Translations under genes and position numbers: made by a program
DNA from: a virus
Virus record (IMG/VR): IMGVR_UViG_3300009786_001529
Span: 1 to 26,681 of that record
DNA: 26,681 bases
Strand: one strand, 5' to 3'
Shown here: positions 13,661 to 24,759 of the stretch, in pieces
Layout: the number at the start of each line of letters is the position of its first letter
Position numbering within the stretch: the stretch's first letter is position 1
Notes under the pieces: model-generated
Database searches by the model: none
Seen by the model: the letters and a program-made list of their open reading frames with translations, nothing else
Told to the model about the DNA's origin: nothing

Positions 13661-14476
13661 CTAAACTTTGGCATCGTCCATGAGACCGAATTCAGCGAGA
13701 CTGCGAGAGACCAACGAGATCGCATCGTCTATGTCGTAGACGTCAGAAACGTAGATTCGGTTAGAATCCGGAGTCACAGCGTCTAAATCGTCTGCCACGA
13801 TCGGTACGATGGTCAGGCTTTCGTCCGTGCCAGATCCGATCGAGTATAGATGGTTGAACCGCACCGTTCGATGGTACCATCCCGATAGTGCGTTAATCAG
13901 CGATGACCGATCCAGTGGCATACCGGCAGGTTTAAGCGTACAGTGGCAAACGTGCGTCCCGGTGGTCAACGCATTCTTCCCGATGGCATACAGCGTTACC
14001 TTATGGCCAGCCTCTTCAAGAATCTCGACTGCCGAGATAGCTGCCATTCCTCGCCACATACATTCGGTCGAAGTCTTTGACCACGGTGTCGTCGTTTGGA
14101 CAACCACGCTAAACTCTCCAGGCCCGGTAGTATCGACCCTCACCGACTTCCTCATAAAGTTGGCATCGCCCTGCATTAGACGATCGATGTCCACGTCGCC
14201 ATCATCGGCATTGAAGACCACTTTGCGTTTGGAGGATTTGATCTCAATCTTAATGAGCTCCTTCATTCGCTTATACAGTTTAGTGGCAATGTCCAATCCC
14301 TCTTCCCAATTACTGTGGGCAGCCTCCATCGCTTGGTCAAAGGTATTTATGTTCCGACCAACAAAGTCGGATTTGCCAGACTCGAATCGATCGCGTAGAA
14401 TCGTCTTCTCCATATCTGCCAGACTGGCATAGGCGTTGACGTCGGTCGTTTTATTCTGTTCGTTCAAAAAGCTCAT
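13661..14476 (-). CDS. MoxR-associated protein, VWA-like candidate (DUF7192-like)
   Basis: 271 residues from the ATG at 14476 (CAAGGAATG upstream). From memory the layout matches a phage family found beside MoxR ATPases: an N-terminal helical region, then DVDIDRLMQGDANFMR, then a beta-alpha-beta core with FSVVVQTTTPWSKTSTECMWRGMAAISAVEILEEAGHKVTLYAIG in pieces. The core fold resembles a von Willebrand A or Rossmann domain, but a classical metal site (DxSxS) is not seen. It lies directly downstream of the MoxR-type gene, so I infer the two work as a pair. The exact family name should be treated as provisional. Confidence 0.6.
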   Translation of the reverse strand: MSFLNEQNKTTDVNAYASLADMEKTILRDRFESGKSDFVGRNINTFDQAMEAAHSNWEEGLDIATKLYKRMKELIKIEIKSSKRKVVFNADDGDVDIDRLMQGDANFMRKSVRVDTTGPGEFSVVVQTTTPWSKTSTECMWRGMAAISAVEILEEAGHKVTLYAIGKNALTTGTHVCHCTLKPAGMPLDRSSLINALSGWYHRTVRFNHLYSIGSGTDESLTIVPIVADDLDAVTPDSNRIYVSDVYDIDDAISLVSRSLAEFGLMDDAKV

Positions 14477-14528
14477 CGTTACATTCCTTGGCAAAGTTAA
14501 AAAGTGAAACTCAGTTTTGTGCGGGCAA

Positions 14529-15815
14529 CTATGCCCAGTCGGCGTGGTTCTTAACCTTCAGCGTCTCATCGGCGTGCCATCCTTGGAAGAATGATTCGTC
14601 GATGTCTTCGATTGTCCAACCATCGGAATACATATCATAGGCGTCTTTCATAAATCGAGTGGACAGTGATCGTTCCAATCGGTTTTTGTTAATGCCATCC
14701 CGGTATTTGAGAAGGCGGTTGCGTAAAGTATCGTCTGGACAAAGTTCTGCTTCCACGGTGGCATCGTAGTCCATATACGTTTTACCGATACGGAATCGGT
14801 CCAGCGTGGCATCATCGAGTTTGTTCCTTCCGGAATACATTCGGTCTGCTCCAGTGCCAACCGTGTTAGCCGCACCGACACAGATGAAGTCGTCGTGCCT
14901 TTCTGCATAGGGATTCGACGGACGATTCGGAACTGCCATCTTCCCGTTTGCCAAGGCCGTGTTAATGACCAGTAGCACATTCGGATCGGCAGCATCCATT
15001 TCGTCTAGTAGGAATACTCCACCATTCTCGAATGCCACGACAAACTCGGAAATGATAGACGAGAAGCCATTGGCCATCGCTGCCGCCAAAGTAGCGGCTG
15101 CCGCCTTGGCAACTCCCTGCTCCACGAATTCGTTATAGTTGTCCATAAGCACATCCCTGTCCGGTATAGTTGGAGCGATGCGAGCCGTCATATGCGTCTC
15201 AGGCGTGCCACTGGTACAACTCGTAAAGTAGAATGGCAGATCCATCGAATCCGCTATCTGCTCGCACGTAAAGGTTTTGCCAGATCCCGTGGGTCCGTAG
15301 ATAAGGATGTTCTTTCGACGCACTGCCAACTTTAGCAGCCGTTCAAACTTAGCATGGAACAGGCCTTCCGTGACCTTAACCATGCCATCCTTCTTCCACG
15401 CTTCGATGCTTACCACTCGATCGGCTGGCTTCGCTGCCACCTGAACCTTTAAGTCTGCCACTTCGTCTTCCAACTGGGCAACGAGTGTGCCAGCCATCGG
15501 ATCGACTAACGGTGCTGGATCTGAAACGGTAAGAGTGGCAGGATTGAAAGTGGCAGGATTTCCCCCTGTGTCCGGTTCGATGTAGTGGATACCGGATGCG
15601 TTCGTTCCTTGCCAGTTCGTTATCCCTCCAATCTTGCCATCGTTGACCATCGTAATGACCACGCCACGCACGACGGATGCGGCAGCGGAGTAGCCGGTGT
15701 ATTTGCCAACCTCGCGGGTTAGTGTTGCCACCGACCACGTTTTGGCACGGTCTTCGGTTAGGATGTACAATACGCATTTGTGAGCGTCGGTCGGGTTTTT
15801 ACTAAAAGTTGCCAT
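14529..15815 (-). CDS. MoxR-type AAA+ ATPase with N-terminal winged-helix-like domain
   Basis: 428 residues; the start at 15815 has AAAGGGAA upstream, while the longer reading would cover the conserved leader. Residues 5-65 look like a small helix-turn-helix or winged-helix domain. The AAA+ core has Walker A GPTGSGKT (174-181), Walker B VFLLDEMD (267-274), sensor 1 AANT (315-318) and DRF in DATLDRFRIG, as in MoxR/CbbQ-type dynein-related ATPases. Such enzymes remodel partner proteins, usually with a VWA-domain partner encoded next door; the following gene is the candidate. The stop codon falls in the loop of a 5-bp hairpin (GGGCA/TGCCC, 14523-14536). Confidence 0.87.
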   Translation of the reverse strand: MATFSKNPTDAHKCVLYILTEDRAKTWSVATLTREVGKYTGYSAAASVVRGVVITMVNDGKIGGITNWQGTNASGIHYIEPDTGGNPATFNPATLTVSDPAPLVDPMAGTLVAQLEDEVADLKVQVAAKPADRVVSIEAWKKDGMVKVTEGLFHAKFERLLKLAVRRKNILIYGPTGSGKTFTCEQIADSMDLPFYFTSCTSGTPETHMTARIAPTIPDRDVLMDNYNEFVEQGVAKAAAATLAAAMANGFSSIISEFVVAFENGGVFLLDEMDAADPNVLLVINTALANGKMAVPNRPSNPYAERHDDFICVGAANTVGTGADRMYSGRNKLDDATLDRFRIGKTYMDYDATVEAELCPDDTLRNRLLKYRDGINKNRLERSLSTRFMKDAYDMYSDGWTIEDIDESFFQGWHADETLKVKNHADWA

Positions 15816-15823
15816 CGTCGTCG

Positions 15824-15874
15824 TTCCCTTTACATTGGAAGAAAAGAAACCGGTGCCAATCTCCGGTAGTGGCA
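15824..15874 (-). promoter_or_regulatory. Conserved leader: second copy of the pseudoknot-like element
   Basis: On the minus strand: TGCCA, CT, ACCGG, AGAT, TGGCA, CCGGT, then TTCTTTTC and, 17 bases after the final GG, TGTAAAGGGAA. TGCCA pairs with TGGCA and ACCGG with CCGGT in interleaved order. Compared with the copy at 13597-13646, the first and last pairs of the first helix differ on both sides but still pair (A-U to U-A, C-G to A-U), which supports the structure. The gene controlled would be the MoxR-type ATPase. Confidence 0.55.
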
Positions 15875-15884
15875 ACAAACTCGT

Positions 15885-20122: not shown

Positions 20123-20629
20123 GTGCCAAAGGTTAAAAAGAAACGGAAGCTGACCAAGGTAATGGGGATCGATCCTGGCAAGTCCGGGGGGATAGTCGTT
20201 CTGGACGTTCGTGGTGGCGTAGTCCTAATGGAAGAGATGCCAACGACGTACCGGGATATCTTCAAACTCCTTGACCAAGACGTAGAGTTTTGTTACATCG
20301 AGTGGATCCATCCTGCCATTCAGGGAGCAGCGAAATCCGCGATGTCCAAGCTGTACGGAAACTACTGTGCCTTACAAATGGCATTAACGGGTAACGCGAT
20401 CCGCCATAATACCGTAATGCCAAAGAAGTGGCAGCAACACTTCGAGATTCCGAAGCGAGGCGGGTTGACCAAGACGAAATGGAAGGATGTCCTCAAAGGG
20501 AAAGCGGAGCAGATCTTTCCGGAACTGGATGTCTGGGACCAAACCCTTACCAAGCAACGTACCGTTTGTGATGCCCTACTCATTGCCGAGTACACAAGGA
20601 GAGAGATATGCCTAAGCTCCCCAAAATGA
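20123..20629 (+). CDS. RuvC-like Holliday junction resolvase (RNase H fold)
   Basis: 168 residues from a GTG directly after the previous stop, with AAAGG upstream. The first strand carries MGIDPGKSGGIVVLD with the catalytic Asp17. CYIEW gives the second acidic residue (Glu60), and TVCDALLIAEY near the end gives the third (Asp150, with Glu156 nearby). This D...E...D pattern and the order are those of RuvC-type and related phage resolvases. It would cut branched DNA made during replication or recombination before packaging. It overlaps the glycosylase gene by 22 bases. Confidence 0.85.
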   Translation: MPKVKKKRKLTKVMGIDPGKSGGIVVLDVRGGVVLMEEMPTTYRDIFKLLDQDVEFCYIEWIHPAIQGAAKSAMSKLYGNYCALQMALTGNAIRHNTVMPKKWQQHFEIPKRGGLTKTKWKDVLKGKAEQIFPELDVWDQTLTKQRTVCDALLIAEYTRREICLSSPK

Positions 20630-21186
20630 CGTGGAAGCGTTTTAAGAAGAAGTGGCAGGACTGCGACAAATGCGAGTTGTCGAAGACTCGGGACAAGATC
20701 GTAATTGCCAAGGGAACAATACCCTGCGACGTTCTGTTCATCGGGGAAGCACCGGGATATAGCGAAGACACTCTTGGCAAACCGTTCGTTGGTCCGGCTG
20801 GCAAACTACTCCATAAGGTTATCGACGAAGCGTTGGAAGAAAACGGGATGATCGTACCGCCAACGATGGCGTTCACTAATCTGGTTTGTTGTATTCCGAA
20901 AACGGAAGACGGAAGCAAAACGCACGACCCGCCAAAGGAGTGTGTACAAGCCTGTTATCCTCGCCTCCAGGAATTCGTTGAACTTTGTAAACCTCAGTGC
21001 CTAGTCTTCGTTGGTAGGGTAGCGGAGAAACGCGGTGGCACTCTCCTCATGTCCGAATGCCTAGATGCTATCTCGATTACGCATCCGGCGGCTATACTAA
21101 GAGGAACGGGTGCGAATACAGAACTACAATGCCAAAAGATGATTATTGACCTACGGGTTATGTTTAACAATCTAGTACCATTTTAG
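20608..21186 (+). CDS. Uracil-DNA glycosylase, Fe-S family 4-like
   Basis: 192 residues. Signatures in order: CDKC (19-22), the uracil-site motif FIGEAPGYSED (44-54), PFVGPAGKLL (59-68), AFTNLVCCIP (88-97), ECVQAC (111-116) and the second motif THPAAILR (158-165). The Cys positions fit a 4Fe-4S cluster as in family 4 enzymes. The same superfamily occurs in many phages as a stand-alone gene near the DNA polymerase. It would remove uracil, or may process modified bases if the phage has them. Confidence 0.9.
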   Translation: MPKLPKMTWKRFKKKWQDCDKCELSKTRDKIVIAKGTIPCDVLFIGEAPGYSEDTLGKPFVGPAGKLLHKVIDEALEENGMIVPPTMAFTNLVCCIPKTEDGSKTHDPPKECVQACYPRLQEFVELCKPQCLVFVGRVAEKRGGTLLMSECLDAISITHPAAILRGTGANTELQCQKMIIDLRVMFNNLVPF

Positions 21187-21195
21187 GAGCGAACA

Positions 21196-22317
21196 ATGCC
21201 ATCTCTGACTTCCAAGATTAAAGCCCAAGCCAAGAAGAACACCGAACCGGCTTGGTCAGGACCACACGACGATGGGATCACCCAGTCGATGGTCTCGTCA
21301 TACCTTAACTGTCGGGAACGATTTCGGATTCGTGCCATCGATGGGCTACAACCGATACCGCGATTCAATAAGGCCATCGCCTACGGACATATGTGGCACC
21401 TATGCGAGGAATGTTTCGCTCGGGGGGAAGACTACCACGACGAACTCAAAGACTACGCGATGGTGTTGGTCAGTCAATGGAAAACCGATCAGGCCGAAAT
21501 CGATAAGTGGTACAACGTCTGTATGGTTCAGTTTCCGGTGTACGTTGATTTCTGGGAACGACATAAAGACGTGAGGCGTCGGAAGCCGTTATTCCAGGAG
21601 AAGTCTTTCAAGATACCATACACCCTACCGTCCGGACGTACAGTGTACATGCGAGGCAAGTTCGATTCGGTAGATATCCTCGGGAAAGAAGTTTGGCTGC
21701 AGGAGAACAAGACGAAGGGACAAATTAACTTTACCAGTTTGGAACGGCAGCTGACCTACGATCTTCAAACGGGATTCTACTTCAAAGCGTTGACCATCGA
21801 TCCGGAAGTGTTAGCGACGAAGAAGAAAGTGGGTGGCATTACTTACAATGTTATCCGTCGTCCGCTATCGGGCGGGAAGGGTTCCATCCGTCCGCATAAG
21901 GCACGCGGTGCCAAGCCGGCAGAAACTCTTCGCGACTACTATGACAGATTACAGACTATAATAGAAATAGACGCCAAGGAGGAAGATGGAGAGCAATGTA
22001 CATTCTTCCACCGATGGAAGATTGAGATTGAGCAAAAGGATTCGGATCGGTTCTGCGACACCTTCCTCAATCCGGTTTTGGAAAATGTTTGCGACGATTA
22101 CGAATGGTGGATGTATTGTAAGAATACTGGCACGTCGGCTTTCGACTACGCTATAAGATCCGGAGAGTTTCCTGACCATCAGCTACGCCATTCGATTCAT
22201 CCCTACGGAGTGTACAATGTTCTAAATGAAGGAGGCATTACGGACATCGACGAATACTTGATCACTGGCTCGACGGTCGGGCTGACTCGTGTAGAAACTA
22301 TGTTCCCGGAATTGTAA
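21196..22317 (+). CDS. PD-(D/E)XK nuclease, RecB/Cas4-like
   Basis: 373 residues, GGAGCG upstream. It has the RecB-family layout: SMVSSYLNCRERF (31-43) at the start, YGHMWHL (63-69), then the active site KFDSVDILGKEVWLQENKTK with Asp157, Glu170 and Lys172, and the trailing Gln motif QLTYDLQTGFY (185-195). The core should act as a metal-dependent exonuclease. With the Sak4-like protein and SSB downstream it would form a resection plus annealing recombination system, in the style of exonuclease-annealase pairs. Confidence 0.87.
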   Translation: MPSLTSKIKAQAKKNTEPAWSGPHDDGITQSMVSSYLNCRERFRIRAIDGLQPIPRFNKAIAYGHMWHLCEECFARGEDYHDELKDYAMVLVSQWKTDQAEIDKWYNVCMVQFPVYVDFWERHKDVRRRKPLFQEKSFKIPYTLPSGRTVYMRGKFDSVDILGKEVWLQENKTKGQINFTSLERQLTYDLQTGFYFKALTIDPEVLATKKKVGGITYNVIRRPLSGGKGSIRPHKARGAKPAETLRDYYDRLQTIIEIDAKEEDGEQCTFFHRWKIEIEQKDSDRFCDTFLNPVLENVCDDYEWWMYCKNTGTSAFDYAIRSGEFPDHQLRHSIHPYGVYNVLNEGGITDIDEYLITGSTVGLTRVETMFPEL

Positions 22318-22318
22318 C

Positions 22319-22525
22319 ATGTTTAGTAGACGACAAAAACGAGAAATCTCTTCATCTGTCCAAAAGATTTTACGAGAGACGGGACATCCGGAATTGCCAG
22401 TTGGTAATATCAGATTCCAACTCCACGTAGACGGAGCAGAGTCATGGAGTTGGGCAGACATCGGGGATAACGCCTCAGTTGATAAACCGGGGGTCAACCC
22501 TCATAACGAAAGTCAGGACAAATAA
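22319..22525 (+). CDS. Hypothetical 68-residue protein
   Basis: The ATG follows the nuclease stop by two bases and its own stop shares a base with the next start (TAATG). Basic N-terminal helix (RRQKREISSSVQKILRETG), then IRFQLHVDGAESWSWADI and a polar tail. No family recognised. Tight packing between nuclease and recombinase genes suggests an accessory role. Confidence 0.62.
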   Translation: MFSRRQKREISSSVQKILRETGHPELPVGNIRFQLHVDGAESWSWADIGDNASVDKPGVNPHNESQDK

Positions 22526-23388
22526 TGCCAGTAGCAAGAAAACAAACTGCCAAGAAGCCAGTAAAGAAGTCCGGGGGCAGGCGAGTACCAAAGACGGGCA
22601 TCTTGTCCAGGATTGAAACGCCAGAGTTTTCCGATGACGATCCGTTGGTTGTTGCCGTATTTGGAAAGCCCACGACTGGCAAGACGACATTCGCCTGTTC
22701 CTTCCCAGGAAGAATCTTGTACGTGTCTTGTTCAGGTGGTCTTAACAAACCGGGAGAACTCAAGTCGTTGTCCAAGGAGACTCTGGCCAAGATCGATTTA
22801 ATCCGGATCAAGAATTGCGAGGATCTCAATAGCATTACCGAAGAAGTGGCAATGTCTGAACCTCATACCACCGTTGTCCTTGACCATCTCACTTCGTTTT
22901 CCGATCTGGTATTGGAGGAAGTAACCGGGAAACCGGTGCCGGCTCAACTTAGTTGGGGTTATGCCAAACAACAGGAGTGGGGGAAGCATGGAGCGTTGGT
23001 CAAGTCGTTTCTACGGAATCTAATCGATACCGGGAAGAATACGGTCATCGTATGCCATGAGAGAGTGTTCGAGCCGCCTGAGGATTCCACGCTCGATCTT
23101 CCTACCGTTATAGGTCCGGCGTGTACTCCAACGATTGCCAACTGGCTTACGGGAACGATAGACTATAGCATCCAGATGTTCCTTCGTGCCAAGACTATCG
23201 ACAAGACGGTCACGATCAACAAGAAGACCAAGATCAGGAAGATCAAAACTGATGAGATGGAGTTCTGTTCGTACCTTCCACTTGCCGAAGGCCGAATGAC
23301 CAAGTTTAGAAAACCGATTGACTTGGAAATACCAACTGTGGTTGTAGACTTAGATTACAATAAACTTTCAGCTATAATAAAGGAGTAG
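22525..23388 (+). CDS. Sak4-like RecA-fold ATPase (phage single-strand annealing/recombination)
   Basis: 287 residues. After a Lys-rich N-terminus the RecA-type core starts: Walker A GKPTTGKTT (47-55), Walker B TTVVLDHLT (115-123), then WGKHGALVKSFLRNLIDTGKNTVIVCHE, the typical strand and sensor region of AAA_24/Sak4 proteins, and a C-terminal IDYSIQMFLRAKTI. Sak4 proteins are short RecA-core relatives that promote homologous DNA exchange and commonly have an SSB gene nearby, as here. It forms one unit with the nuclease upstream. Confidence 0.85.
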   Translation: MPVARKQTAKKPVKKSGGRRVPKTGILSRIETPEFSDDDPLVVAVFGKPTTGKTTFACSFPGRILYVSCSGGLNKPGELKSLSKETLAKIDLIRIKNCEDLNSITEEVAMSEPHTTVVLDHLTSFSDLVLEEVTGKPVPAQLSWGYAKQQEWGKHGALVKSFLRNLIDTGKNTVIVCHERVFEPPEDSTLDLPTVIGPACTPTIANWLTGTIDYSIQMFLRAKTIDKTVTINKKTKIRKIKTDEMEFCSYLPLAEGRMTKFRKPIDLEIPTVVVDLDYNKLSAIIKE

Positions 23389-23390
23389 GG

Positions 23391-23570
23391 ATGCTGATAC
23401 TTTCAAGAAAGAAGGAAGAGACAATTGTCGTCACTTTGCCAGACGGCACTGAGATATCAATTATGATCGTAGATCTTCGCGGAGACAGAGTGCGATTGGG
23501 CATCGAAGCTCCAAAAGATTTCAAGATTTTAAGAAAGGAGATTATTGGCAATGAACCTACTGTAACGTGA
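23391..23570 (+). CDS. csrA: CsrA/RsmA-family RNA-binding translational regulator
   Basis: 59 residues, ATG two bases after the previous stop, with AAAGGAG in front. The sequence MLILSRKKEETIVVT ... GDRVRLGIEAPKDFKILRKEI is a clear CsrA: MLILSRK at the start with Leu4 and Arg6, the central VRLGIEAPK, and the Arg equivalent to CsrA Arg44 in ILRKEI. These residues bind GGA motifs in RNA. The usual Gly-Glu at positions 9-10 is Glu-Glu, and there are two extra residues in the second strand loop (LPDGTE). CsrA dimers block ribosome binding or stabilise mRNA. A phage copy could redirect host carbon or motility control, titrate host small RNAs, or time its own genes. Confidence 0.93.
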   Translation: MLILSRKKEETIVVTLPDGTEISIMIVDLRGDRVRLGIEAPKDFKILRKEIIGNEPTVT

Positions 23571-23613: not shown

Positions 23614-24759
23614 ATGCCAGTTAAAAAGTCCGTGCTCGGGAAGACATTCAAATCGAGTCTGAACAAGCAAAAGAAGAAGAAGCAAACTTTCACTCCCGGT
23701 GGTGGAGGATTCCCGAATGGAATTGAGTTTGGAGTTGCCAAGATTTCGTCGATGAAGATTGACGTCTACGGTCGCGGCGACAACAAGGGAAAACCGTACT
23801 TCATGATGAGGGGCGTTTGTACATCCCCTAAAACAATTAAGTTGGACGGTGATACGGTCGACGTGGCAGGTATCCAAGACACTCTCGTCATGGAGCCGTT
23901 GTTCGATACGCCGACACGTGCCAGAAAGACTGAGGCTGAGCATATTGCTTACCTTCTCTGGATTCTCCAAGAGATGGGGGTCGACACTGACGACATGGAC
24001 GACGATTCGTTGGAAGATGGCAGTCTCTTCAAGGCAATTCTTGAGGACAAGCCTCATGCCAAGTTCCGGACGTGGAAGGGTGAAGCTACAAAAGACTTCC
24101 CCGACCCACGCGTCAATGTTCAATTCGGTGGTATCAAGAACGACGTGGTCAGCGAAGAAGGCGATGACGATGACGTCGTGGACGAGACGGATGACGAAGT
24201 GCCAGACGAAACTGAACCGGATGTAGTCGATGAAGCCGGTGAAGAAGAGGAAGAAGCAAAACCTGCTCCAAAGAAACCACGACGCAAGAAGAAGAAAGTG
24301 GCAAAGGCTGAACCTGAGCCTGAGCCAGAAGAAGACGAAGATGAAGATGAAGACGAAGATGAAGGCGATGAAGATCTGGAAGAGTTGGCCAAAGCTGCCG
24401 ACGCTAACGATGAAGATGAGGAATCCGCTGCCAAGATTATGGAAGCTGCCACTAAGGCTGGTGTATCCGAAGAAGATGCCGAATCAGCTGCCAACTGGGT
24501 AGCTGTCGTCGAGTTGATCAAGGAAGCATCCGGCGGTGACGATGAAGAAGAACCAACGGTGGAAGAGGAAGAAGACGAAGACGAAGAAATCTCACCTGCC
24601 AAGGGTGAAACCTACTTCTACAAGCCGCCACGGTTTAAGAAGGCAGTTGAGATCGAGATCACCAAGGTTCTCGCTCGTGCCAAGAAGGTCAGTGGTAAGA
24701 CATCGAAGGGTAACACCTACGATAACGTGCCATTCGACAAGTTGAGCAACGATAGTTAG
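23614..24759 (+). CDS. SSB-like protein with long acidic low-complexity region
   Basis: 381 residues, GGAGAAG upstream. The N-terminal 150 residues (FPNGIEFGVAKISSMKID, KPYFMMRGVCTSPK, HIAYLLWILQEMGV) look like the OB-fold-containing SSB-like proteins paired with Sak4 in phages. Residues about 175-260 are Asp/Glu repeats broken by a KPRRKKKKVAK block, coded by GAAGAC/GATGAA repeats (about 24310-24370). A helical segment, another acidic run and a beta-rich C-terminus (TYFYKPPRFKKAVEIEITKV) follow. The Asp/Glu tails probably regulate DNA binding and recruit partners, as in other SSBs. Confidence 0.65.
   Translation: MPVKKSVLGKTFKSSLNKQKKKKQTFTPGGGGFPNGIEFGVAKISSMKIDVYGRGDNKGKPYFMMRGVCTSPKTIKLDGDTVDVAGIQDTLVMEPLFDTPTRARKTEAEHIAYLLWILQEMGVDTDDMDDDSLEDGSLFKAILEDKPHAKFRTWKGEATKDFPDPRVNVQFGGIKNDVVSEEGDDDDVVDETDDEVPDETEPDVVDEAGEEEEEAKPAPKKPRRKKKKVAKAEPEPEPEEDEDEDEDEDEGDEDLEELAKAADANDEDEESAAKIMEAATKAGVSEEDAESAANWVAVVELIKEASGGDDEEEPTVEEEEDEDEEISPAKGETYFYKPPRFKKAVEIEITKVLARAKKVSGKTSKGNTYDNVPFDKLSNDS

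Follow-up and report, generated by a model that had tools for sequence, protein, structure and literature searches.

A CsrA-family gene within a recombination operon

The window, i.e., the whole 26.7-kb stretch of viral DNA that was analyzed, includes a Sak4-type module, in which a gene for a Sak4-like ATPase lies beside those for an exonuclease and an ssDNA-binding protein (SSB) assigned weakly by its fold (Table 1). The window also encodes tape measure and head-tail connector proteins and therefore belongs to a tailed phage. The open reading frame that follows the Sak4 gene, csrA, is translated as MLILSRKKEETIVVTLPDGTEISIMIVDLRGDRVRLGIEAPKDFKILRKEIIGNEPTVT.

Table 1. Coordinates of the recombination operon genes and of the csrA elements in the window
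Feature	Coordinates	Strand	Basis
Holliday junction resolvase (HJR)	20123..20629	+	phrog_1770 3.2e-17
Uracil-DNA glycosylase (UDG) superfamily protein	20608..21186	+	PF03167 1.1e-21
PD-(D/E)XK (RecB/Cas4-like) exonuclease	21196..22317	+	PF12705 4.4e-14, phrog_1218
Small ORF between exonuclease and Sak4	22319..22525	+	without family match (Pfam, PHROG)
Sak4-like single-strand annealing protein / RecA-like AAA_24 ATPase, Walker A GKPTTGKTT	22525..23388	+	phrog_124 1.9e-23, PF13479 3.5e-12
Shine-Dalgarno (SD) AAAGGAG of csrA	23379..23385	+	sequence; 5 nt ahead of ATG, touches Sak4 stop TAG (23386-23388)
csrA, 59-aa CsrA/RsmA-family RNA-binding protein (by homology)	23391..23570	+	Pfam, PHROG, PDB, AlphaFold
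Codons 14-21 (VTLPDGTE), beta2-beta3 hairpin of CsrA	23430..23453	+	alignments; model strands 11-15, 21-30
Probable ssDNA-binding protein (SSB): OB-fold-like N-terminal domain (~aa 35-175), long acidic C-terminal region	23614..24759	+	model fold

The csrA product matched PF02599 (CsrA) in the Pfam search with E=2.6e-18 and 66.1 bits, the curated cut-off being 27 bits, and phrog_9500, "CsrA-like regulator", at 9e-12 in the PHROG search. It also matched the PDB sequences of CsrA/RsmA/RsmE. All RNA-contact residues are present (L4, R6, A40-P41, R48 and E50; in E. coli numbering L4, R6, A36-P37, R44 and E46), and the alignment identified R48 as the equivalent of E. coli Arg44. The top 15 PDB matches of the AlphaFold model, built as a single chain (pLDDT 87), were all CsrA/Rsm proteins, with TM up to 0.75. 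The open reading frame encodes a bona fide CsrA-family protein, far past chance. A chance ORF was considered and ruled out by profile, fold and synteny. The preliminary description of this DNA had proposed a complete CsrA with Leu4, Arg6 and the C-terminal Arg, and the profile match and the presence of L4, R6 and R48 confirmed it. Its remark that the gene is too short for many gene callers was mistaken: callers in common use take genes of 90 nt, and 59 amino acids are long enough for standard ones.

The start codon of csrA lies 2 nt past the Sak4 stop codon, and the median of this distance across 30 operons was also 2 nt. The gene does have the strong ribosome site of its own that had been described, and it abuts the Sak4 stop codon. 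Since this layout is typical of translational coupling, csrA is likely to be translationally coupled.

The earlier placement of csrA between Sak4 and SSB genes held for Sak4, identified by phrog_124 and AAA_24; the SSB assignment found no backing by sequence and a weak one by fold. The SSB-labelled protein belongs to no Pfam or PHROG family and gave no convincing PDB sequence match. The fold closest to its model (pLDDT 81) was that of PrgE (prob 1.00, TM 0.39/0.53, E=3.5e-3), a plasmid ssDNA-binding OB-fold protein, and the OB folds of SSB, RPA and Cdc13 ranked lower. The model weakly supports a predicted OB-fold ssDNA-binding protein. Kept across approximately 60 operons, it is a probable new type of phage SSB. 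The UDG gene, too, is a regular member of the module, a possible sign that these phages repair uracil or altered bases. Elsewhere in the window, a CobS/MoxR-like AAA ATPase gene (14529-15878, minus strand) adjoins that of a DUF7192 protein (13661-14494, minus strand). A search of the window for known Rfam families identified no CsrB/RsmZ-like titrating (sponge) RNA, no tRNA genes were found in it, and a promoter scan of the operon detected 9 promoter-like sites compared to 8.1 in shuffled sequences.

Recurrence and conservation of csrA in related operons

A search of IMG/VR with a CsrA alignment identified at least 526 CsrA-related stretches. Inspection of 88 viral loci, counting the window, revealed a Sak4-like gene nearby in about 20, several of which showed the order exonuclease-Sak4-CsrA-SSB. 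Relatives of the module were then retrieved with exonuclease and Sak4 alignments, without demanding the presence of csrA, and all module genes were mapped; the seeds of these alignments all came from csrA-bearing loci. While a scan of viral contigs with one Sak4 sequence gave no matches, the alignment-seeded scans recovered the module. In total, 61 distinct Sak4-SSB operons, all from one uncultured clade, were found in IMG/VR. The csrA gene was present in 44 of them (42 at domain E ≤1e-5 and 2 weaker) and lay exactly between Sak4 and SSB in 30 of these. Its other locations were the exonuclease/Sak4, UDG/exonuclease and HJR/UDG gaps, before UDG, and after SSB. For the operons without csrA, a whole-record search located the gene elsewhere in a few cases, inspection of their Sak4-SSB gaps for a diverged CsrA produced no convincing case, and two open reading frames (ORF 8946 of L164 and ORF 7803 of L230) are possible csrA remnants.

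On the 46 module-bearing contigs of 25 kb or more, csrA lay inside the module 31 times and elsewhere 4 times. It went undetected on the remaining 11 and is therefore dispensable to the module. Random placement predicts about 5 in-module genes compared to the 31 seen among 35; the binomial P of ~1e-22 treats the contigs as unrelated and overstates the case because the contigs are kin and the seeds all carried csrA. On the exonuclease tree, many forks of which are weakly supported, csrA underwent 23 state changes, 13 of them between presence and absence. Inheritance alone is a poor account of a gene that relocates repeatedly inside one module, which is hard to explain in that way. Its recurrent return to the same operon in a large uncultured clade suggests that csrA belongs routinely to the infection program and is not a stray host gene. 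Separate from this clade, Sak4-DUF669 operons in other viral contigs (L002, L084, the L087 group, L100 and L127) are also linked with csrA.

The 42 operon CsrAs from loci with a complete gene set share a mean pairwise identity of 41%. Nonetheless, among all 44 operon CsrAs, Arg occupies the Arg44-equivalent position in 43, Glu46 is retained in 42, and Arg6, Ala36 and Pro37 in 40 each; the Leu4 position is occupied by Leu in 34 and by Ile or Val in 9. In known complexes, GGA in RNA is recognized by these conserved residues. As the key residues are retained at such a level of overall divergence, selection seems to act on RNA binding. The key Arg of CsrA has been described before (PMC7366521). 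Loss of the gene or of its key residues in close relatives had been named in advance as evidence against a CsrA function; the residues are kept, while the gene was undetected in about one quarter of the long relatives.

The same observations bear on whether csrA is a passenger gene (moron) acquired from a host and retained by chance or for a slight fitness effect, with no specific role in infection. Its presence is patchy, as the 13 gains or losses on the exonuclease tree illustrate, and plausible hosts often carry related csrA genes. In one relative (L143), CsrA shares 81% identity with its counterpart from a Pirellulaceae MAG, a hint that part of the clade has planctomycete hosts. However, the conserved key residues and the placement in one module in 31 of 35 contigs point to selection, and we consider a mere passenger very unlikely. 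The window CsrA itself was at most 57% identical to the bacterial CsrAs retrieved, with no clear donor, and a search of 392 planctomycete genomes for prophages carrying the module produced no good one, only weak exonuclease matches. As a separate observation, four Planctomycetota genomes (G062, G086, G107 and G125) have 9-15 csrA-like genes each, compared to the usual one or few in bacteria; csrA-bearing phages of such hosts may interfere with this enlarged set or draw on it.

The linkage to the genes of Sak4, exonuclease and SSB, strong and repeatedly re-established, including in the separate Sak4-DUF669 operons, would also be expected if CsrA were a direct part of recombination, its fold acting on ssDNA or RNA at recombination intermediates or partnering Sak4 or SSB. 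Divergence of CsrA was uncorrelated with that of Sak4 (Mantel r=0.10, p=0.17) and of SSB (Mantel r=0.08, p=0.24), although these two correlate with each other (r=0.52). The exonuclease was the sole protein of those compared that correlated with CsrA (r=0.34, p=0.0015). Consequently, a tight physical partnership with Sak4 or SSB is not favored, with the proviso that distances over 50 residues are noisy. Since, in addition, the conserved residues are those for GGA in RNA and about one quarter of the modules do without csrA, we regard a direct recombination part as highly doubtful. Somewhat less remote, but still improbable, is an RNA-binding regulator wired into phage recombination, in this clade and separately in the Sak4-DUF669 modules, that would set the Sak4/SSB stoichiometry or act at recombining ends.

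GGA motifs and structural variation of the phage CsrA

Another explanation is that CsrA is a phage-internal regulator that binds ribosome-binding sites within the operon (at the csrA start, at SSB or at Sak4) or other phage leaders, setting the amounts of recombination proteins or an early-late switch. The gene is inside the operon, its SD contains one GGA, and a second GGA overlaps the start codon (GGGATG). Across the operons, csrA leaders showed a small nominal excess of GGA outside the SD (1.11 observed vs. 0.86 expected), and the SD GGA was located in an apical loop in 16% of the csrA leaders compared to 3-12% for the other five operon genes. However, SSB leaders showed no such excess (0.67 observed vs. 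0.68 expected per leader), GGA is found in nearly all SDs and is for that reason weak evidence for or against, and any cis arrangement is unconserved because the position of csrA in the operon shifts. Control of phage leaders, which the preliminary description had also raised, is then an unlikely role. Cis-regulation of SSB by CsrA was rejected, as the SSB leaders have no GGA excess beyond the SD.

It had also been suggested that a Glu at position 9 and a two-residue loop insertion may change the specificity of the protein. Alignment to E. coli CsrA showed that the window protein is longer by 4 residues, not two, and that they lie in the beta2-beta3 hairpin. Hairpins resembling it (PDGT/EDGTE) occur in the phage CsrAs of loci L093, L097 and L109, a comparable one is found in the CsrA of a 595-kb uncultured phage (L006), and insertions of 1-5 residues at this location recur among other phage CsrAs. 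Glu9 is indeed present and unusual, but residue 9 is variable among the 44 operon CsrAs (G 21, N 11, D 7, S 2, K 1 and E 1). A specificity change through Glu9 or the loop is therefore unsupported. Other phage CsrAs have peculiarities of their own: those at L004 6001-6360 and L005 4109-4468 have a C-terminal extension with CxxC and CGNGH motifs that may serve as a zinc-binding tail, and in that at L157 8994-9194 a tandem duplication of SVHRREV doubles the key-Arg segment.

A probable trans-acting regulator among known CsrA and Sak4 systems

We consider it probable, though well short of certain, that the csrA product is a translational regulator, produced alongside the recombination proteins, that acts in trans on GGA-containing mRNAs, mainly those of the host. 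On 31 of the 35 long csrA-bearing contigs the gene lies in the module but at varied places, which fits co-expression and trans action better than a cis or fixed-partner role. CsrA, presumably as a dimer, would be made along with HJR, UDG, exonuclease, Sak4 and SSB, would bind GGA-containing ribosome-binding sites in trans, and would repress or retune the translation of host mRNAs during infection, possibly defense, motility or metabolic transcripts. Being encoded among the recombination genes would most likely give CsrA the right timing and dosage. The proposal that the protein could rewire host regulation is then plausible, and a benefit to the phage may follow. The strict linkage of csrA to a DNA-recombination module could nevertheless reflect a more direct role there.

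The window CsrA has the family profile, the modelled fold and the RNA-contact residues in common with CsrA/RsmA/RsmE (Pseudomonas RsmE-hcnA, PDB 2jpp; E. coli CsrA). It is 34-43% identical to the solved members over about 53 columns and differs from them, besides the longer hairpin and Glu9, in having Leu for His before the key Arg and a short C-terminal end. Phage-encoded CsrAs have been published (PMC7366521, PMC8450108, PMC9144972, PMC11879866), with surveys in 2020 (PMC7366521) and 2021 (PMC8450108), the latter of which covered IMG/VR too. A plasmid CsrA complements rsm mutants, according to a passage of PMC7366521 that cites this result. Knockdown of the csrA homologue of phage PTXU04 led to smaller plaques (PMC11879866), and Serratia RsmA binds and represses cas mRNAs, with the same proposed for phage RsmA (PMC8450108). 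Like the window, the known examples (phrog_9500, phrog_5527; F116/H66, Vibrio phages, Burkholderia JC1, PTXU04 gp28) are csrA genes of tailed phages, but the window CsrA is merely ~37-50% identical to them and its gene abuts those of Sak4 and SSB. With Sak4-type phage modules the window shares Sak4 (phrog_124), a Cas4/RecB-like exonuclease and an ssDNA-binding protein; it adds UDG and csrA, and its SSB type is absent from Pfam and PHROGs. The window exonuclease retrieved no close match for the module in the annotated phage collection.

In the cultured temperate Pseudomonas phages D14H, PP9W, F116 and H66, csrA lies in a gene run toward RecT, Rad52-like, exonuclease or SSB genes; early co-expression may therefore be general. 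The Vibrio and Xanthomonas phage csrA genes examined showed no such run toward recombination genes. Phage CsrA is a known kind of protein, and its stable association with Sak4 modules is unreported as far as the literature searched shows; no paper naming Sak4 and CsrA together was found there, an absence that is no proof.

Earlier accounts have treated phage csrA genes as scattered morons or potential anti-CRISPR factors, whereas here csrA is regularly found in a conserved recombination module. This placement makes its role testable, as it predicts the time of synthesis and binding to GGA-containing RNA, and the clade supplies dozens of natural CsrA variants for the comparison of targets.
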